Source: Spirosoma fluviale
GTDB taxonomy: Bacteria > Bacteroidota > Bacteroidia > Cytophagales > Cyclobacteriaceae
Length of the DNA stretch: 37,733 nt
Direction of reading: 5' to 3'
NCBI GenBank assembly: GCA_945868725.1
Contig: CAMBMU010000021.1
Coordinates: 1-37,733, forward strand
The position numbers and the translations under genes were made by a program. The notes under the pieces were generated by a model that did not search any database, was not told the DNA's origin, and was given only the letters and a program-made list of their open reading frames with translations. How positions within the stretch are numbered: the first letter of the stretch is position 1; every line of letters starts with the position of its first letter. Positions 8,515 through 32,804 of this stretch are shown in pieces.

Positions 8515-8917
8515 AAAAATAGGTAGCGATTAAAAAACAGTAAAACAAAAAAAATATTTTGTTAAATAAATTAAAAAAAATTAAATAAACAGCTATTTAT
8601 TTTAAAAAATATAAAAATATAATGTAATAATTAAGTTATATGATTATCCGCAATTATTCCAATGGCTCAATAGATGCCTATTAAACACTGCGGATAATCG
8701 CTCACAGTCGGCTGTCCACGGTCCACAGCTCACTTAATTGATCCTCAAACCCTATTTTCTTAGGTTAGTGGTGAAAAAGCGGATAATCATAAAACTGATA
8801 AAACTAGTGAGTGTAATGAATAGATATTTCGTAAAAAAATGACACATAACTTCGCTTCCAGTCTGGATTTTTCAGAATGGTGTGAGTAGTCGACTCTTAA
8901 AAAAACGAAATCTACTA
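8515..8917. other. Gene-free stretch: A+T-rich promoter region plus repeat copy A
   Basis: Bases 8515-8635 are almost entirely A and T and probably hold the promoter of the minus-strand HTH gene, though I cannot pin a -33/-7 pair. Bases 8636-8794 are a near-complete copy of the dispersed inverted-terminus element. From 8795 to 8917 nothing recognisable is present apart from the downstream flank of the M28 peptidase gene. Confidence 0.6.
8636..8794 (+). repeat. Dispersed TIR element, copy A (near-complete, 159 bp)
   Basis: The left end TTATATGATTATCCGC (8636-8651) and right end GCGGATAATCATAAAA (8779-8794) are inverted repeats matching at 15 of 16 positions. A third, inverted copy of the core, CTGCGGATAATC, sits inside at 8688-8699, dividing the element into a left hairpin module of about 64 bp and a right module of about 95 bp. 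The right module carries TCCACAGCTCACTTAATTG and GTGGTGAAAAAGCGGATAAT, both shared with copy B. No open reading frame is contained. The form resembles a non-autonomous MITE-like or REP-like element. Confidence 0.85.
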
Positions 8918-10264
8918 TTAACGGGAGAGTGGAGTTGGAATCACCGGCAAACTTTCAGTTCCATGCTCTGAAATAGACTGTACGGCAAAGAAGTAATTAT
9001 CCTTGCTGTAAGGAAGCTTCAATTGGGTGTCTTCGGTGTAAAACTTTTTTTCCCACATGGCTGAGGAGGTCTCACGCATGAGCACATAGTATCCTTTTGC
9101 TTTGCCATGGATAGGGGCTTTCCAACTCAAGGTCGATGAGTTGCTCAACCCGCGCACATCAATTTTTACTTCTTGTGGCATTCCTGCGGACTGACCGAGA
9201 GAAGCCGCTGCAGCAAGATTGACGGCGGCCACTTTCCGGAGGTATTCAAAATCCATGAACTCGGGTAAATCCCCGTACTGAATTCCATTTTCTACCCGTA
9301 CGTTTTCGTGTTGGTACAGGAAGTTTTCATTCATTTCGGACATGCGCACTGCGGTAAATCCATTTTTCATAAAGGAAGTTTGGTCTCCTCCTCTTAGAAA
9401 TCGATCGTTTCTATAGATTAACTTTACTTCCATCTGATCTACGTAGCGCTCTCCAAGTTCCTTGATGTAGCGCGCCAGCTGTCGAGAGGGACTGTCGTTA
9501 TCCGAATTGATGGAGCGGCGGATACCTGCGCCACGCTCATCCTCTGCCAATGGGATTGTTTCTGAAAACACGCGCATGACCGTGTTGTTGCTGATATTGG
9601 TTTCGGAAGAATTGCTATTTCCGACAATGTCATTGTTGAGCACCGCCTCAATTTTCCAGGATTCAGCTTTTGCCTTATCCGCCAGATAGGTGGCTCCCTT
9701 CAGGCCTTGTTCTTCCCCAGTAAAGGCAACAAAAAGAAGGGTGGCTGGAAACTCGGTGCCAGCGAGTATTCGGGCGAGTTCTAGGACCAAGGCTACACCG
9801 CTGCCATCATCATTGGCTCCTGGCGCTGCGCCGGCAGCATCCATAACATCCTTATTTCTAGAGTCTAAATGCCCTGAAACGATAATTATCCGTGGATCAT
9901 TGGGATTGGTTCCAGGTAGTTTGGCGATGACATTCCCAACAGTTGCATCGGCCACTATTCTTCTTCCGTCACCCGGTACCACAAATTCCTCGATGTTTGC
10001 AGTCATCCTTCCTTTTGATTTCCCTGCAAACTCCAAAAATTTAGCCTTCACATAGTTCTGAGCGGCAAGCATGCCATTTTTATCATCTCTGTTGAGGGTA
10101 TGTCTGCTTTGGAAGGAAGCCAGTTTTGTTGTATATTTTTTTAAACTGTCGGCATTTACTTGCTGCACGAGCTGATGGATTTCTGGATTGCGAATGACGA
10201 TCTCCTGACCAAATACAGGGAAAGTGAGGATGAGGGCGGTAAGTAAGAATAAAATGTGACGCAT
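8918..10264 (-). CDS. Secreted M28 family zinc aminopeptidase
   Basis: This 448-residue protein has a signal peptide (LLTALILTFPVFGQ) and a peptidase M28 domain. Visible metal and catalytic segments are VSGHLDSR, GANDDGSGVALVLELARIL, FTGEEQGLKGA, NNDIVGNSNS and the late QHENVR histidine, so both zinc sites look complete. The final 80 or so residues (EVKIDVRGLSNSSTLSWKAP onward) resemble a fibronectin type III-like beta domain. It should release N-terminal amino acids from peptides in the periplasm or outside the cell. The gene is divergent from dinB, sharing a 68-bp intergenic region. A second M28 paralogue of different architecture is encoded at 26550-28013. Confidence 0.92.
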   Translation of the reverse strand: MRHILFLLTALILTFPVFGQEIVIRNPEIHQLVQQVNADSLKKYTTKLASFQSRHTLNRDDKNGMLAAQNYVKAKFLEFAGKSKGRMTANIEEFVVPGDGRRIVADATVGNVIAKLPGTNPNDPRIIIVSGHLDSRNKDVMDAAGAAPGANDDGSGVALVLELARILAGTEFPATLLFVAFTGEEQGLKGATYLADKAKAESWKIEAVLNNDIVGNSNSSETNISNNTVMRVFSETIPLAEDERGAGIRRSINSDNDSPSRQLARYIKELGERYVDQMEVKLIYRNDRFLRGGDQTSFMKNGFTAVRMSEMNENFLYQHENVRVENGIQYGDLPEFMDFEYLRKVAAVNLAAAASLGQSAGMPQEVKIDVRGLSNSSTLSWKAPIHGKAKGYYVLMRETSSAMWEKKFYTEDTQLKLPYSKDNYFFAVQSISEHGTESLPVIPTPLSR

Positions 10265-10332
10265 GGTGGGGATCCTATCTTAAGTTCAGCTTAAATTTAG
10301 TTCAGATTTTAAAACAACCTAGTCAATTTTAC

Positions 10333-10848
10333 ATGAACACATTTTCCCTGCCTAGCAAAGGCGAATATCCTCCCTACTACGAAACCTATATTTCAAAGCT
10401 TGGAGATCAAAATTTTTCGACACTCCTCCAATCTCAAACCCAGGAATTAAAGGCTTTTTTTACTTCCAAAACTGAGGAATGGACCAATATGCCTTATGCC
10501 CCAGGTAAATGGACTCCTAAAGAAGTTTTGGGTCACTTGATTGATACGGAGCGCATCATGACTTTTCGCGCGCTGTGTATTGCTAGAGGAGAGAAAAAAT
10601 CGCTACCTGGTTTTGACCAAGATCCTTATGTTGTTCAAGGACAGTTTAATGCTGTTTTATTGGATGATTTACTTTCAGATTTTGAAATGCAACGGCAGGC
10701 AATCCTAAGCATGGTACAAACTTTTCCAGAAGCCGCTTTTCAGGAAATTGGATCAGCTAATGGAAATCCCATAAGTACCAGGGCTTTGCTTTGGATCATC
10801 CCTGGTCACTTTTTACATCATTTCCAGGTACTTCAACAAGCGTATTGA
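10333..10848 (+). CDS. DinB family protein (DinB_2-type four-helix bundle)
   Basis: The 171-residue cytosolic protein matches the DinB/YfiT-like four-helix-bundle superfamily. It has the early motif WTPKEVLGHLIDTERIM and the C-terminal GHFLHHFQVL, whose histidines (VLGHLID; HFLHH) are the typical metal ligands. Family members include bacillithiol or mycothiol-dependent transferases and uncharacterised metal proteins, so the reaction cannot be named. Its stop codon overlaps the next start by one nucleotide (TGATG), indicating translational coupling with the PhzF-like gene. Confidence 0.85.
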   Translation: MNTFSLPSKGEYPPYYETYISKLGDQNFSTLLQSQTQELKAFFTSKTEEWTNMPYAPGKWTPKEVLGHLIDTERIMTFRALCIARGEKKSLPGFDQDPYVVQGQFNAVLLDDLLSDFEMQRQAILSMVQTFPEAAFQEIGSANGNPISTRALLWIIPGHFLHHFQVLQQAY

Positions 10849-11645
10849 TGAGAAATTTAGCGATTGCAGTTGTAGATTCTTTTTCGGAGAAGCCATTTTC
10901 AGGTAATCCAGCAGCGGTTTGCCTATTGGAAAGTCCGTTGTTGACATCGGAGATGCAGGCCATCGCCATGGAGATGAACCTGAGTGAAACGGCCTTCGTA
11001 GAGAAAACTCAAGAGGAGGGCAGCTATTCCCTTCGCTGGTTTACGCCAATGCTAGAAATTGATCTTTGTGGACATGCGACTCTTGCGGCTGCCCATAGGA
11101 TGTATGCTGCAGGTTGGGTGAAGGAAGGGAAAGGGATTCGCTTTCAAACCTTAAGTGGAGAACTAAGGGTGACCAAGCAGGAGGACTTAATTTGTATGGA
11201 CTTCCCCTTAATTCCAACTGAGATAGCTCAGCATCCTGCATATACAGGAGAAATTTTTGGAAGCAAGATTATCCAAGCGGCTCAACTTCGGAAAAACTGG
11301 ATTTTTGAGTTGGCCGATGAGGAGGCAGTGCGTTCTTTCCAGCCTAACTTTACACGAATTGCAGAGACAAGTGAAGAAGGATTTGTCATTACCGCAGCAG
11401 GAAGCACTGGCTACGACATGGTCAGCCGGTTTTTTGGTCCTAATGTAGGCATCCCTGAGGATCCAGTAACGGGCTTTGCGCACTGTGCATTGGTGGATTA
11501 TTGGAACCAGAAAACAGGAAAAACAAAGTTTAAGGCCTTTCAAGCTAGTACTCGGGGAGGGGAACTCTTATTAGAAATTAAGGGAGATCGTGTGCTTATC
11601 CAGGGCAAGGCAGTACAGGTTTTGGTAGGTACATTGAGTTGCTGA
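10848..11645 (+). CDS. PhzF family isomerase
   Basis: The 265-residue protein shows the PhzF fold markers: DSFSEKPFSGNPAAVC (10-25), SETAFVE with the presumed catalytic Glu47, DLCGHATLAAAH in the middle, and DPVTGFAHC late. PhzF-like proteins are diaminopimelate-epimerase-fold isomerases; outside phenazine producers their substrates are mostly unknown, and there are no phenazine genes here. I chose the ATG at 10848, which overlaps the dinB stop as TGATG; the frame stays open upstream to an ATG at 10791, but that would insert 19 residues ahead of the conserved start. Confidence 0.9.
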   Translation: MRNLAIAVVDSFSEKPFSGNPAAVCLLESPLLTSEMQAIAMEMNLSETAFVEKTQEEGSYSLRWFTPMLEIDLCGHATLAAAHRMYAAGWVKEGKGIRFQTLSGELRVTKQEDLICMDFPLIPTEIAQHPAYTGEIFGSKIIQAAQLRKNWIFELADEEAVRSFQPNFTRIAETSEEGFVITAAGSTGYDMVSRFFGPNVGIPEDPVTGFAHCALVDYWNQKTGKTKFKAFQASTRGGELLLEIKGDRVLIQGKAVQVLVGTLSC

Positions 11646-11772
11646 TCAATAAACCACATTTGAATTTACAGTATCCATCCAAAAAAATGGAAGGCTACCG
11701 CTTCTGTAATTTTCACTTCGAGATATTTAAATAAAAACGTACTTACTCTTCTTTAAAAAACAAGTCAAACCC

Positions 11773-13257
11773 ATGAGAAAACTATCTTTAAGCCTTTTGC
11801 TACTCTGTGTGGTTACCTTAACGGTAGCGCAGACTACGCGTAAAATTGAAGTAGAATCCAAGGTGGAATCTACCTCCGAAGTGATGATTAAAGGCAAGCG
11901 AGTGCCTTACAAAGCCACGGCAGGTACGCAGCCTGTTTGGGATGAGAAAGGTGAGCCTATCGCTTCTTTATTTTACACCTACTACGAGCGTACCGATGTG
12001 GTAGACCGTACGAAAAGACCCTTGGTGGTCAGTTTCAATGGAGGACCTGGATCGGCTTCCATCTGGATGCACTTGGCCTATACAGGTCCTGTGGTCCTAA
12101 ATATTGACGACGAAGGATATCCAGTTCAGCCTTATGGCACCAAGTCCAATCCCCATTCCATTTTGGATGTGGCGGACATCGTCTACATCGATCCAGTGAA
12201 TACAGGCTATTCAAGAATCGTGAAAGAAGATACGCCTCGAAGCACCTTTTTCGGGATCAATTCAGACATCAAGTATTTGGCTGATTGGGTCAACACCTTT
12301 GTGACTCGTCAAAACCGTTGGGCATCCCCGAAGTATTTGATTGGCGAAAGTTACGGTACTACTCGCGTGGCAGGCATTGTGTCCCAGTTGCAAAATTCCC
12401 ACTGGATGTATTTCAATGGTGTGATTTTGGTGTCTCCTACGGACATGGGCATCTTGCGTGATGGACCAGTGAAAATGGCCAATTACTGGCCGTACTATGC
12501 AGCTACTGCTTGGTACCACAAAGCATTACCTGCGGAGTTGCAGGCTAAGGATTTGGATGAGATCTTGGCTATCGTGGAACCAATGGCCGTCAATGAGATT
12601 CTTCCTGCTATGGCTAAGGGAGGATTGCTTAGCGAGTCCGAGCGTGATGCTATCGCTACCAAAATGGCCTATTACTCAGGTCTGAGCAAAGAGTCGATTC
12701 TTCAACACAACCTGATGGTGCCTACTGGATTTTTCTGGAAGGAGTTGCTAAGAGCCCGTGATGGCATGACTATCGGTCGCTTGGACAGCCGTTACAAGGG
12801 ATTTGATCGGATGGAAGCGGGTGACCGCTACGATTTCGATCCGGCATTGACTAGCTGGAACCATGCTTTTGCACCTGCATTTAACCTGTATGCCAAGAAT
12901 GTGCTGAAGTACAACACCGACCTTACTTACAATCTTTTTGGCCCTGTCAATCCTTGGGATCGTAGCAACGAGAACACGGCCAATGACTTAGGAACTGCCA
13001 TGCGTCAAAATCCATACCTACACCTGATGGTTCAGTCGGGCTATTTTGATGGGGGTACCGACTACTTCAATGCGAAGTACAGCACCTGGCACATCGATCC
13101 AAATGGCAAGCTGAAGAATAGAATCGATTTTAAAGGCTATCGTTCCGGTCACATGATGTACCTGAGAGCGGAGGACCTGGCTACTTCTAACGAGGACATC
13201 CGTAAGTTTATCCAAAAATCTTCGGTAGCACCTGGGCAAGCAGCGAAATACAAGTAA
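11773..13257 (+). CDS. Secreted S10 serine carboxypeptidase-like peptidase
   Basis: This 494-residue protein has a signal peptide (LSLSLLLLCVVTLTVAQ) and the S10 family landmarks: FNGGPGSASIWMHL for the oxyanion region, GESYG with nucleophile Ser193, SGYFDGGTDYF with Asp426, and GYRSGHMMYL with His460. The alpha/beta-hydrolase triad is therefore complete. It should remove C-terminal residues from peptides in the periplasm or extracellularly, complementing the M28 aminopeptidases in the same window. It is monocistronic; two bases after its stop a copy of the dispersed TIR element begins, so the element occupies the transcript's 3' end. Confidence 0.92.
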   Translation: MRKLSLSLLLLCVVTLTVAQTTRKIEVESKVESTSEVMIKGKRVPYKATAGTQPVWDEKGEPIASLFYTYYERTDVVDRTKRPLVVSFNGGPGSASIWMHLAYTGPVVLNIDDEGYPVQPYGTKSNPHSILDVADIVYIDPVNTGYSRIVKEDTPRSTFFGINSDIKYLADWVNTFVTRQNRWASPKYLIGESYGTTRVAGIVSQLQNSHWMYFNGVILVSPTDMGILRDGPVKMANYWPYYAATAWYHKALPAELQAKDLDEILAIVEPMAVNEILPAMAKGGLLSESERDAIATKMAYYSGLSKESILQHNLMVPTGFFWKELLRARDGMTIGRLDSRYKGFDRMEAGDRYDFDPALTSWNHAFAPAFNLYAKNVLKYNTDLTYNLFGPVNPWDRSNENTANDLGTAMRQNPYLHLMVQSGYFDGGTDYFNAKYSTWHIDPNGKLKNRIDFKGYRSGHMMYLRAEDLATSNEDIRKFIQKSSVAPGQAAKYK

Positions 13258-13259
13258 AA

Positions 13260-13416
13260 TTATATGATTATCCGCAATCATGCCAGTAGCTCAGCATGTC
13301 TATTTAAAACTGCGGATAATTGTTGACAGACCACAGTCAACGGTCCACAGCTCACCTAATTGAACCTCAAACCTTTTTTTCTCTGGCTAGTGGTGAAAAA
13401 GCGGATAATCATATAA
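13260..13416 (+). repeat. Dispersed TIR element, copy B (complete, 157 bp)
   Basis: The ends are a perfect 16-bp inverted repeat: TTATATGATTATCCGC at 13260-13275 and GCGGATAATCATATAA at 13401-13416. An internal inverted core CTGCGGATAAT lies at 13310-13320. If the ends are trimmed to TATATGATT...AATCATATA, AAAT flanks the element on both sides, a possible 4-bp target duplication in A+T-rich DNA. It begins 2 bp after the S10 peptidase stop codon and carries no ORF. Confidence 0.88.
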
Positions 13417-13628
13417 AATTAATTTGTCGACAGCTGACAGACCACGGTCTGCAGGTTGTCGTCTGTGGACTGATGACAATTTTAACAGTCAACCGTCCAC
13501 GGACGACAGCCGAGTCGTGGTGATATCAAGTTTAGAAACCAAATACTAAGATGTTTTTTACGTGCTAAACCCTACTGGCTGTGGTCTGTTGACCGTCAAC
13601 TGTTGACATTCGCCTTAGTGACCTTTTC
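13417..13628. repeat. GTCCAC/GTTGAC-word repeat tract with hairpin
   Basis: This tract after copy B is built from variants of GACAGACCAC, GTCTGTGGAC, GTCAACCGTCCAC and GTCAACTGTTGAC. It contains a 13-bp inverted repeat with one G-T pair (GTCGTCTGTGGAC at 13458-13470 and GTCCACGGACGAC at 13495-13507). The same words occur inside copies A, B and D of the TIR element, so part of this tract may be expanded from the element. With copy B it makes up the 371-nt gene-free region 13258-13628. Confidence 0.6.
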
Positions 13629-15356: not shown

Positions 15357-15650
15357 TCCTACGGATCCATCTGTGTGAAAAAAGTTTACCGCAGATTCTT
15401 TGGAAAAATTCTGCAGATCAAATGAAATAAATAGGATTATCCGTAATCCTGCTATTGGCTTAAAAAGTAATTCTAGTAGCTAAATTACCCTTTTTTATAT
15501 CGCTCCTCTGGAGCTCTGCACCAACTTTCACGAGGCTTTCTATTCACATAATGCCCCTCTGGGCCATAGACCTATAGCGTTCAATTTTGTAACTGGTCCT
15601 AATCGGAAAAATATCAACTCTTTACGCAGCCTAAGTTGCGGAAACACCGA
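15357..15650. other. Gene-free stretch with a repeat fragment and palindromes
   Basis: It holds a decayed left-end fragment of the TIR element (15431-15480) and a perfect palindrome GCTCCTCTGGAGC (15502-15514). A related near-palindrome ATGCCCCTCTGGGCCAT (15551-15567, one mismatch) follows. There is also a nested hairpin in which CTAATCGG (15599-15606) pairs with CCGATTAG (15647-15654), with CGCAGC/GTTGCG inside and TTTTTT after it on the plus strand. No ORF is evident. Confidence 0.5.
15431..15480 (+). repeat. Dispersed TIR element, copy C (left-end fragment)
   Basis: ATAGGATTATCCGTAATCCTGCTATTGGCT aligns, over about 50 bp with substitutions, to the left end of copies A and B (GATTATCCGCAAT...CCAATGGCT). 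The internal inverted core and the right module are absent, so it is a fragment or a solo left module. Confidence 0.55.
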
Positions 15651-16250: not shown

Positions 16251-17084
16251 ATGAAAAAGTTAGCAGCTCTTTTTTGCGTTGTTTATGCCTTATCCGCTTG
16301 TTCGATTGTGCCATTAACTGGAAGAAGTCAACTAGCCATTTTTACCACCCAAGATTTGATGCCATTGGTAAATGACGAATATAAAGAATCCTTGACGGAT
16401 AGTAAGGTATTGACGTCCACCAAAGAAGGCCAAGAAATAGTCAAAGTAGGCAATAGAATGGCCGAAGCAGTGGAAACATATTTGAAAGAGCAAGGCTATG
16501 ATTCGTTAGTTAACGAACTAGACTGGGAGTTTAATTTACTTGAGAATGAGGAAATAAATGCCTGGTGTATGCCTGGGGGCAAGGTAGCTTTTTACACAGG
16601 GATTTTGCCATTTACCAGGGATGAAACTGGCATTGCAGTAATTATGGGACACGAAATCGCACATGCTGTAGCAGGGCATGCAAATGAAAGAATGTCACAA
16701 GAATTACTTTTCGAACTCGGAATAACAGCTGTGGACATTGCTATTGGGCAAAACCCAACGCTTACTCAAGAGCTATTACTTCAAGCTGTTGGGGTAGGTT
16801 CCGAACTTCAAATACTTGGTTTTTCTAGAAAGCATGAACTAGAAGCTGATCGCATGGGCTTGATTTTTATGGCAATGGCTGGGTATGATCCTCGAGAAGC
16901 ACCCGCTTTTTGGGAAAGGATGGCTGAGGATTCGGAAGAGGAAGAATTTGAGTTTTTATCTACCCATCCTGGACCTTCTCGAAGAATTGAACGCCTTAAT
17001 TCATTGCTGCCTGAAGCGATAGCGATCTATGAGCAATCAAAAGGATCAATAGGACTATCCGCTTTTTCACTAAGAACGAAATAG
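16251..17084 (+). CDS. M48 family metalloprotease lipoprotein (BepA/Oma1-like)
   Basis: This 277-residue protein has a lipoprotein signal (lipobox LSAC, Cys about 16). The N-terminal segment SIVPLTGRSQLAIF is typical of periplasmic M48 proteases. The zinc site is complete: HEIAH (His134, Glu135, His138) with the third ligand in HELEAD (Glu196). Such enzymes handle misfolded outer-membrane or periplasmic proteins. The C terminus is odd: residues 267-277 (IGLSAFSLRTK) and the stop are encoded inside the reversed end of a dispersed TIR element (17048-17141). The normal end therefore seems to have been replaced just after the conserved SRRIERLNSLLPEA segment. Catalytic residues are untouched, so activity is probably kept. 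Confidence 0.9.
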   Translation: MKKLAALFCVVYALSACSIVPLTGRSQLAIFTTQDLMPLVNDEYKESLTDSKVLTSTKEGQEIVKVGNRMAEAVETYLKEQGYDSLVNELDWEFNLLENEEINAWCMPGGKVAFYTGILPFTRDETGIAVIMGHEIAHAVAGHANERMSQELLFELGITAVDIAIGQNPTLTQELLLQAVGVGSELQILGFSRKHELEADRMGLIFMAMAGYDPREAPAFWERMAEDSEEEEFEFLSTHPGPSRRIERLNSLLPEAIAIYEQSKGSIGLSAFSLRTK

Positions 17085-17141
17085 AAGAAGCTTCGTAGTT
17101 CAATTAGGTGAGCTGTGGTCTGTGGACAGTCAACTGTGGTC
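17048..17141 (-). repeat. Dispersed TIR element, copy D (right module, reversed, overlaps the M48 gene end)
   Basis: Read on the minus strand this is the right module of copies A and B: CCACAGCTCACCTAATTG near its start and GTGAAAAAGCGGATAG at its end, finishing with an end repeat of the variant GCGGATAGTCCTAT. It is about 94 bp and lacks the left module. Bases 17049-17084 encode the last 11 codons plus the stop of the M48 protease. The rest fills the 71-bp gap to the convergent exonuclease gene. Confidence 0.75.
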
Positions 17142-17155
17142 GATTTTTTCAAATC

Positions 17156-17962
17156 TTAACGGGCATTGAAGCCACGCAATTTGATTTGGGTAAGTTTCCG
17201 TTTGGTGTCAAGCGGAAAATCCCCCTTCATCATCCACTCGTAGTAGCCAGGCTCTTCTTTGAGCGCCTGCTCGATGGTTTTTCCTTTGTGCTTACCAAAG
17301 TTGAATACTTCTTGTCCCTTCGCATCGAAGATAAAGCGACCCGCGAGATCTACCATTCGCTCGTTGACAAGAGCATGGATTTTTTTCATGTCGTTTTCAA
17401 ATACACCAAGGGTATTTCCTTGTAGGTCTACGGCAGTCTCACCCAGGTAGCGCTCCATCTGTGCACGAAATACATCTACAGTAGCCAAGGTGTCTGCTTC
17501 GGCACTGTGTGCATTTTCAAGTTTTTTGCCACAGTAGAATTTATAGGCTGAACTCAAGTTTCTTTTCTCCATCAGGTGAAAAATCTTTTGGGCATCCAGC
17601 AGATTTCGTTTTTCGAGATCAAAGTCGATTCCAGATCGTAGGAATTCCTCCACCAACAAGGGAATATCGTATTTTAGGACGTTGAATCCAGCCAAATCAC
17701 TCATCCCTATAAATTGAAAAACTTCTTGTGCTAGATCTTTGAAATAGGGCTCGTTTTTGAGGTCTTTGTCGTACAAGCCATGGATTAAGGAAGCTTCCAA
17801 AGGAATAGGAACACCAGGATTTACCCGACGGGTATAGATCTGCTGCCCTCCATCCGGGTTCAATTTGACGATCGATATCTCCACAATTCGATCCGTGGAG
17901 ACGTTGGTGCCCGTAGCCTCCAAGTCAAAAAATGCAATGGAATTTTTTAGGTTAAGATGCAT
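17156..17962 (-). CDS. DEDDh 3'-5' exonuclease (DNA polymerase III epsilon-like) with C-terminal DUF3820-like domain
   Basis: The 268-residue protein has an exonuclease domain: FFDLEATGT with Asp13 and Glu15, FNVLKYDIPLL in the centre, and NAHSAEADTLATVDVF with the His-Asp pair, giving the DEDDh set. After residue 200 it carries FNFGKHKGKTIEQALKEEPGYYEWM, the short DUF3820-like domain often joined to such exonucleases in Bacteroidota. It should degrade single-stranded DNA or RNA 3' ends or proofread. Its start codon lies inside the last 11 nt of the mpl gene, so the two are translationally coupled and share the mpl promoter. Confidence 0.88.
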   Translation of the reverse strand: MHLNLKNSIAFFDLEATGTNVSTDRIVEISIVKLNPDGGQQIYTRRVNPGVPIPLEASLIHGLYDKDLKNEPYFKDLAQEVFQFIGMSDLAGFNVLKYDIPLLVEEFLRSGIDFDLEKRNLLDAQKIFHLMEKRNLSSAYKFYCGKKLENAHSAEADTLATVDVFRAQMERYLGETAVDLQGNTLGVFENDMKKIHALVNERMVDLAGRFIFDAKGQEVFNFGKHKGKTIEQALKEEPGYYEWMMKGDFPLDTKRKLTQIKLRGFNAR

Positions 17963-31324: not shown

Positions 31325-31388
31325 AATTTATGATTATCAGCAATCAATCCAGTGGCTAGAGAGGAGTGTTTACCACTGTGGTTAATCG
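31325..31388 (+). repeat. Dispersed TIR element, copy E (solo left module)
   Basis: TTATGATTATCAGCAATC...CACTGTGGTTAATCG aligns with the left module of copies A and B over 64 bp. Inside, CAGTGG (31350-31355) and CCACTG (31373-31378) pair across a 17-nt loop. It lies between the DUF2911 start and the fic gene end. Confidence 0.65.
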
Positions 31389-31394
31389 TGTTTT

Positions 31395-32513: not shown

Positions 32514-32804
32514 TATTAAACATTTTTGATGGTGTCGAGTTCAACATCAAAATTATTTTATGATGAAAATAGTTAAAAAATTCATCATTAATTCTTTTAC
32601 TGTCGAAATAGAGATACAAATCATGTCTGTGGCTTAATAGGAGTGCTAACCACAGCGAATAATCGTACTCTGAAGAATGTCCACGACCCACAGCTCACTT
32701 AACTGGACTTCAACTGGTAGTATTCCCTTTGACTTGTTGTAAAAAGCAGGTAGTCATTGGATCTATACGGAGCGATTCTATGAGTGGTTTAACTACTTAA
32801 TACC
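32514..32804. other. Gene-free stretch upstream of fic, containing repeat copy F
   Basis: Bases 32514-32608 are A+T-rich and contain CAAAATTA (32548-32555), a minus-strand TAATTTTG box that may belong to fic, without a clear -33. The rest is a decayed TIR element (32609-32757) followed by about 50 bp before the cusB stop. Confidence 0.5.
32609..32757 (+). repeat. Dispersed TIR element, copy F (decayed, about full length)
   Basis: Segments in order match copy A: TGGCTTAATAG (for TGGCTCAATAG), GCGAATAATCG (GCGGATAATCG), CCACAGCTCACTTAACTG (CCACAGCTCACTTAATTG) and GTAAAAAGCAGGTAGTCAT (GTGAAAAAGCGGATAATCAT). CTGTGG (32627-32632) pairs with CCACAG (32650-32655) over a 17-nt loop, the same geometry as copy E. 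Confidence 0.65.

Follow-up and report, generated by a model that had tools for sequence, protein, structure and literature searches.

The subject of this analysis is a short dispersed repeat, probably a miniature inverted-repeat transposable element (MITE), on contig CAMBMU010000021.1 of Spirosoma fluviale assembly GCA_945868725.1; "the window" denotes this whole stretch of 37,733 nucleotides. A family profile search of the window recovered two full copies (A and B), one decayed near-full copy and three fragments. These are the six places at which an earlier inspection of the letters alone (the sequence-only reading) had seen a dispersed element: copies A and B are present as placed, and of the relatives listed at 15431, 17048, 31325 and 32609 the last three stand by profile, while the first, now at 15435, is only probable. 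The end motif GCGGATAAT occurs six times in the window, always within copies A and B (mean 0.13 and maximum 1 in 100 shuffles), and a search with this motif also confirmed in both copies the internal inverted core that had been described. No open reading frame (ORF) of 80 or more amino acids lies inside copy A or B. The features, with the terminal inverted repeats (TIRs) of the two full copies, are as follows.

8639..8791, plus strand: MITE copy A, full length (153 bp), without target duplication and with a rearranged right flank (profile E 1.3e-40)
8643..8651, minus strand: GCGGATAAT in the left TIR of copy A
8690..8698, plus strand: internal inverted core of copy A
8779..8787, plus strand: GCGGATAAT in the right TIR of copy A
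13255..13262, plus strand: left 8-bp target duplication of copy B, TAAAATTA (single TAATATTA at the empty site in the congeners G012, G007 and G011)
13263..13413, plus strand: MITE copy B, full length (151 bp; profile E 6.6e-45; bounds from the empty sites in G012, G007 and G011)
13263..13275, plus strand: left TIR of copy B, TATGATTATCCGC
13312..13320, plus strand: internal inverted core of copy B, GCGGATAAT, a third copy of the end motif
13325..13355, plus strand: degenerate heptamer tract of copy B, of a length that varies between copies (limits set by eye)
13401..13413, plus strand: right TIR of copy B, GCGGATAATCATA
13414..13421, plus strand: right 8-bp target duplication of copy B, TAAAATTA
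15435..15468, plus strand: probable left-end remnant (profile positions 2-35; E 0.0053, weak)
17053..17166, minus strand: decayed copy without left end (profile positions 32-146; E 1.6e-21)
31331..31389, plus strand: left module only (profile positions 1-59; E 2.5e-9)
32620..32755, plus strand: decayed near-full copy (profile positions 13-146; E 1.5e-19)

The host genome is a 2.81-Mb metagenome-assembled genome (MAG), 82% complete. That the element should recur elsewhere in this genome was borne out: copy B used as query gave at least 44 matches (the best 40 of 130 candidates being scored), and TGATTATCCGC occurs 91 times compared to 0 for the reversed control. Full copies were counted in a sample of 63 segments around matches (316,560 bases when merged), in which an iterated profile search returned 211 hits that reduced to 136 non-overlapping ones; 58 of these span the element with 30 bp of flank on each side and form the full-copy set, and many of the remainder are fragments or the heptamer tract alone. 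The full copies measure 130-187 bp, most commonly 151 bp (21 copies), and run from TATGATTATCCGC to GCGGATAATCAGA with a 13-bp TIR containing one mismatch. The element of about 157 bp that had been drawn at 8636-8794 and 13260-13416 is thus real, but its exact ends lie further in, at 8639-8791 (153 bp) and 13263-13413 (151 bp), and its supposed 16-bp TIR shrinks to 13 bp, the outer TTA/TAA of copy B belonging to the target duplication.

We compared the left with the right flanks of the full copies at offsets 5 to 24 and took the expectation from mispaired flanks. Offset 14 alone stood out, pairing positions -10 to -3 before TGATT with positions +4 to +11 after AATC: here 64-74% of copies match as opposed to 31-51% of mispaired flanks. 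On the basis that eight flank positions match and their neighbours just outside lie at or near expectation, the target duplication is 8 bp long. It is present with 0-2 mismatches in 34 of the 58 copies (4.04 expected) and is perfect in 16. The AAAT on either side of copy B had been taken for a possible duplication; the duplication exists, and AAAT is a part of the 8-bp TAAAATTA. The left duplications are 84% A+T in stretches that are 55% AT, a comparison with whole stretches and not with intergenic DNA. In two host contigs (C126:1-148 and C133:1-148; loci L119 and L120) a MITE copy is preceded by identical sequence (145/145 bases) and followed by different sequence, the C126 copy having a perfect duplication and the C133 copy none, a pattern possibly due to recombination between copies or to an assembly join.

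Empty sites also bear on the boundaries. When a 10.5-kb piece of the window was compared with ten congeners, the site of copy B could be resolved to the base in three (G012, G007 and G011), in all of which it is empty with contiguous flanks: a single TAATATTA stands where the host has TAAAATTA, the element and TAAAATTA again. In G012 and G007 the left and right flank matches share exactly 8 bp, and the letters of G011 were read directly. Similarly, a second insertion (C8:9483-9640, compared with six congeners) has an empty site in G012, G011 and G005, each with an overlap of exactly 8 bp. The element ends therefore coincide with insertion boundaries at two clean sites, each seen against three congeners, as the sequence-only reading had expected of a mobile element. 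A further insertion, at C16:35409, is found at the same place in G012, which therefore shares it; G007 lacks the element there but has a rearranged site, and G020 and G005 showed no more than the left flank.

By placement the element is almost exclusively intergenic. Using a crude longest-ORF caller, we found that 57 of the 58 full copies overlap genes by at most 40 bp, the share for randomly placed 150-bp windows of these stretches being 12.3%. Among the 50 intergenic copies with a gene on both sides the neighbours are convergent in 17, tandem in 24 and divergent in 9 cases (48, 130 and 37, respectively, for all neighbouring gene pairs). The element settles in AT-rich intergenic DNA, as is expected from selection and from target preference alike.

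The probable origin of the ends emerged from two congener loci at which the MITE left end is followed by foreign sequence. One of them, in Algoriphagus sp. CAU 1675 (G015), is a 1042-bp element with TTTTTTAA on both sides and a 308-amino-acid gene on the minus strand that holds both DDE_Tnp_IS1595 (Pfam, E 4.6e-21) and Zn_ribbon_IS1595 (E 4.6e-6) and scores 195.6 bits against NCBIfam IS1595 (cut-off 75). Six copies of this insertion sequence (IS) have both ends in view, with a transposase identified by tblastn only in those other than the CAU 1675 copy, and five of the six are 1042 bp long with identical 8-mers on both sides (Algoriphagus sp. CAU 1675, A. winogradskyi, Algoriphagus sp. AK58, Rhodonellum psychrophilum and Belliella aquatica). 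The longest frame is 310 codons in four of these, so that a full-length frame survives in the isolates A. winogradskyi, Algoriphagus sp. CAU 1675, AK58 and Rhodonellum; it is 203 codons in Belliella, whose copy therefore looks broken. In A. yeomjeoni and A. faecimaris, IS fragments at the ends of contigs suggest that these species hold many more copies.

Over the left 26 bp the IS agrees with the MITE consensus at 25 positions. For CAU 1675 alone this agreement is not a product of the search, as the other four copies were found by those letters. The right 50 bp formed no part of the search pattern, and here the alignment of all five 1042-bp copies with the MITE exceeds all 500 shuffles (z 4.9-7.4). 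The two 13-bp ends of the IS agree with each other at 10 or 11 positions and those of the MITE consensus at 12; the IS has the end motif at its left end only and no internal second GCGGATAAT. A related IS in G019, 64% identical, still matches the MITE at 22/26 positions of the left end; its match on the right is weaker, 1 of 500 shuffles reaching the score. Members of the IS1595 family usually generate 8-bp target duplications, according to the available text of PMC8101967. An IS1595-family IS with ends homologous to those of the element, together with the 8-bp duplications, argues for an IS1595-derived MITE and not a repetitive extragenic palindromic (REP) element. The sequence-only reading had left this choice open; with duplications, empty sites and an IS in hand, its non-autonomous mobile element is retained and its REP-like option dropped. 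It had also raised the prospect of a transposase gene with the same ends, or of a REP-associated tyrosine (Y1) transposase: an IS1595 element with homologous ends does exist in sister species, but the host MAG yielded none, and the stretches covered around its three Y1 genes contained no copy.

We put at roughly 0.93 the probability that the repeat is a non-autonomous IS1595-derived MITE with the 1042-bp IS as its probable parent, mobilised in trans. The MITE would have kept about 27 bp of the left and about 45-50 bp of the right IS end, with the 13-bp TIR and an inner CCAGTA / TTAGTGG box, and in place of the transposase gene would carry a filler with two components, the inverted end motif and the heptamer tract. 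The TIRs would be bound by an IS1595 zinc-ribbon/DDE transposase provided in trans, which would insert the element into AT-rich intergenic DNA, its staggered cuts leaving the 8-bp duplications. Ends, duplications and empty sites are the grounds on which we infer this mechanism, with mobilisation by the transposase of this particular IS; in the ancestry of the MAG, movement would have been driven by an IS since lost, left unassembled or replaced by sister IS1595 copies.

The family extends beyond the host. At E <= 0.001, copy B had a match in 20 of 23 congeners and in none of 14 genomes representing other families of the order; several congeners gave one weak match each, and that of CAU 1675 corresponds to the IS. 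A left-end pattern of 26 bp was present in 38 stretches of named genomes (Algoriphagus species and MAGs, Belliella, Rhodonellum, Cognataquiflexum, Echinicola, and MAGs labelled Cyclobacteriaceae or Cytophagales) and had 0 matches in viral contigs. Transposase sequence lies beside the end in 24 of these stretches, 12 are MITE-like (L164 included) and 2 are neither (L179 and L188). Among the matches listed, five contigs of G013 begin with a copy.

Variant forms accompany the standard one. A diverged subfamily in G004 (L074, L260, L265, L268, L270 and others; 17 copies aligned) has TGAATATCCGC as its left TIR and mostly GCGGATATTCG as its core, with the right TIR unchanged at that position; G004 contains 25 matches to its own subfamily, 20 of them of at least 139 bases. 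In an Algoriphagus MAG, L164:3403-3497 (JANQWS010000027.1) is a 95-bp short form without core and heptamer tract. This short form is flanked by a perfect ATTGATTT duplication, which implies that the middle of the MITE is dispensable for insertion. Three 58-bp forms comprise the left module alone: two lie free in the host (C18:20701 and C37:7516), their would-be duplications agreeing by eye at 3/8 and 6/8 positions, respectively, and the third (C143) sits inside a longer, rearranged copy.

Several observations weigh against descent from, and mobilisation by, the 1042-bp IS. First, in the host MAG we found no IS with a TATGATTATCCGC end. A search for IS1595 domains in seven MITE-bearing genomes (the host and six congeners) gave four hits in the host, one in G005 and none in the other five, with no full MITE-like end in the loci of these hits; six of the seven are incomplete MAGs (67-83%), and G004, which carries the MITE subfamily and is 99% complete with 6% contamination, had no such hit. 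Second, the sixth IS copy with both ends in view (Cognataquiflexum, L189) has an apparent length of 1036 bp and lacks matching 8-mers, and over the outer right 13 bp MITE and IS match at only 9-10 positions. Third, a sister IS in G023, which has TTAGATTT on both sides, also aligns with the MITE better than nearly every shuffle (its score is reached by 0 of 500 on the left and 2 of 500 on the right), so that the parent cannot be told from similar ends alone. Fourth, 24 of the 58 full copies have more than two mismatches in the duplication and none that convinces. Finally, copy A has no duplication: no element stands at the corresponding place in G007, G012 and G005, and on the left the boundary fits G007 and G005, but on the right no clean boundary can be drawn because at least the first 25 host bases beyond the element match nothing in those relatives.

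The absence of a parent from the MITE-rich genomes searched would mean either that the parent was lost or remained unassembled in these lineages or that sister elements mobilise the MITE. With the host MAG 82% complete, a lost or unbinned parent is possible, and repeats are often missing from MAGs. A parent in the same genome is in any case not required of MITEs, given the 19 partnerless MITE-like repeats reported in the portion of PMC3852290 available to us. Mobilisation by sister IS1595 copies, a variant compatible with the IS1595 derivation set out above, we consider possible though distinctly the less probable course. Of seven host IS1595 loci (C154 counted once), three (C20, C31 and C54) have TATGTGTATCCGT ends and two (C86 and C154) TATGACTATTCGG ends; in C35 and C62 neither end was found, the C35 fragment being the host locus nearest to the parent (76% over 45 amino acids). 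No IS1595 ends other than TATGTGTATCCGT and TATGACTATTCGG were read in the host, and each of these differs from the MITE left TIR at 3/13 positions. By contrast, the left 26 bp of the MITE match the CAU 1675 IS at 25 positions and the G023 sister IS at 19, and the incompleteness of the MAG, with the repeats that tend to drop out of such assemblies, would account for a missing parent. The host loci with TATGACTATTCGG and TATGTGTATCCGT ends represent two further IS1595 subgroups, and several of these loci lie at contig ends.

We also examined the filler of the MITE. Among the segments compared in 55 aligned host copies, the core GCGGATAATC is the most conserved (95.5%), ahead of the left TIR (93.6%), the right TIR (87.0%) and the spacer at positions 29-47 (64.9%), figures that favour the ends, given that the search for copies relied on similarity to copy B and on exact end-motif matches. 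In the 49 of 58 copies whose heptamer tract could be cut out, identity is 47.4% at lag 7 and 46.5% at lag 14 compared to 17-28% at the other lags from 2 to 13. Heptamer-like tracts of the GTCCACGGTCAACAG type, some arrayed, also occur outside the MITE (window 13422-13614; host C20:26735-27331 and C74:3598-4408); they match the MITE middle at profile positions of about 50-95 and look like a separate repeat family.

Core and left TIR have changed together in G004. All 17 G004 copies have A for T at one position of the left TIR and the complementary change in the core, with the right TIR unchanged. Across 105 elements we counted 31 departures in the left TIR, 21 of them with a matching change in the core and 2 with one in the right TIR, but 17 of the 21 are the single G004 change, and in the host only 1 of 8 departures is matched in the core. 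The stem that left TIR and core can form is Watson-Crick in 982 of 1033 cells, with two-sided changes at four pairs; the frequent two-sided case is one subfamily (the 17 G004 copies and one in G001), and two of the rare ones (L263 and L269) changed the right TIR too.

Such conservation and joint change might be read as the mark of a selected regulatory or RNA element, such as a terminator or riboregulator, that was duplicated by means other than transposition. This is very improbable. Target duplications and empty sites speak against it, as does the low share of host departures matched in the core, and the equal numbers of G-T and A-C cells in the left stem (16 versus 16), without the excess of G-T, argue against a hairpin formed by one RNA strand. 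Rfam gave no match in the copies; the sole match up to E 1 (mir-5316, E 0.9) lies outside them and far below the gathering score. The data thus lend no support to a selected RNA hairpin, and the co-variation fits palindrome correction or common recognition by the transposase just as well. Returning to the IS1595-derived MITE, we take the core to be a palindromic or transposase-recognised part of amplified master copies and at most a candidate functional site. That it is a working third transposase site, making a nested pair in which a 58-bp unit (left TIR and core) lies within the 151-bp unit, is an unlikely, speculative extension. If true, a third site would raise capture of the transposase and so help the MITE to outnumber its parent, and it would explain both the conservation of the core and its joint change with the left TIR in G004.

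The least probable alternative, REP-like palindromes or bacterial interspersed mosaic elements (BIMEs) moved as single strands by a Y1 transposase, has in its favour that the element is intergenic, palindromic and multi-copy, that the host has three Y1_Tnp genes over cut-off and that many copies contain GTAG near position 24, but we rejected it as highly implausible given 8-bp target duplications (which REP elements are not known to make) with exact empty sites, a length of about 151 bp with TIRs and TATGATTATCCGC / GCGGATAATCAGA ends in place of a 20-40 bp GTAG-tagged hairpin, no copy at E up to 10 within up to 1.5 kb on either side of the three Y1 genes, and an IS1595 element with homologous ends. 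Elsewhere in the window, positions 2682-2756 and 2842-2916 are tandem identical tRNA-Asp (gtc) genes.

A repeat that is abundant in Algoriphagus and its relatives, and apparently without a name, thereby gains a mechanism and a probable parent, which helps to explain intergenic repeats and contig breaks in such genomes. With the probable parent IS in named isolates and no IS with those ends in the MITE-rich genomes searched, the family also lends itself to the question of how long MITEs persist after their transposase is gone, or switch to another one. We found no description of it in open-licence titles and abstract openings on IS1595, MITEs, Algoriphagus and Bacteroidetes, with ISfinder outside the scope of this search; the MITE of PMC11578231 is tied, in the text available, to IS1182 and not to IS1595. 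The kind is known, both as IS1595 MITE and as MITE with a minisatellite, and it is this family that appears to be undescribed.

Set beside known systems, the MITE has in common with the autonomous 1042-bp IS 25 of the left 26 bp, a homologous right end and 8-bp duplications; unlike the MITE, the IS encodes a transposase (308 amino acids in CAU 1675) and has no internal GCGGATAAT. REP elements and their REP-associated tyrosine transposases (RAYTs) resemble the MITE in being dispersed, palindromic and usually outside genes, but are described in the accessible part of PMC3733652 as 20-40 bp hairpins with a terminal GTAG and a Y1 transposase. Among MITEs of the Bacteroidota there are two points of comparison, and one of their hosts, Cardinium, belongs to the order Cytophagales. 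MITECca01 of Cardinium likewise derives from a parental IS, is mostly intergenic and outnumbers its parent, but it is about 240 bp long, its parent is of the IS982 family (ISCca4) and it is absent from other sequenced Cardinium strains, as far as the excerpted text of PMC9769881 reports. BrickBuilt of Porphyromonas gingivalis is always intergenic and has a tandem-repeat tract inside, but with a 23-bp unit in P. gingivalis strains compared to the degenerate 7-bp period here (PMC4596501, whose abstract names no parent IS). From these partial accounts MITECca01 is the nearest that we found by host and BrickBuilt the nearest by anatomy. That the kind is already known follows from the ISHwa6-related MITE of Haloquadratum walsbyi (PMC3852290, Table 4), compared here by description only: it too is derived from IS1595, short (165 bp versus 151), multi-copy and flanked by 8-bp direct repeats. 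Unlike the present MITE it is archaeal, with a 25-bp inverted repeat and 7 copies, and the description in the available part of that source mentions no internal core or heptamer tract. A bacterial IS1595 MITE now stands beside this archaeal one, and others may exist.

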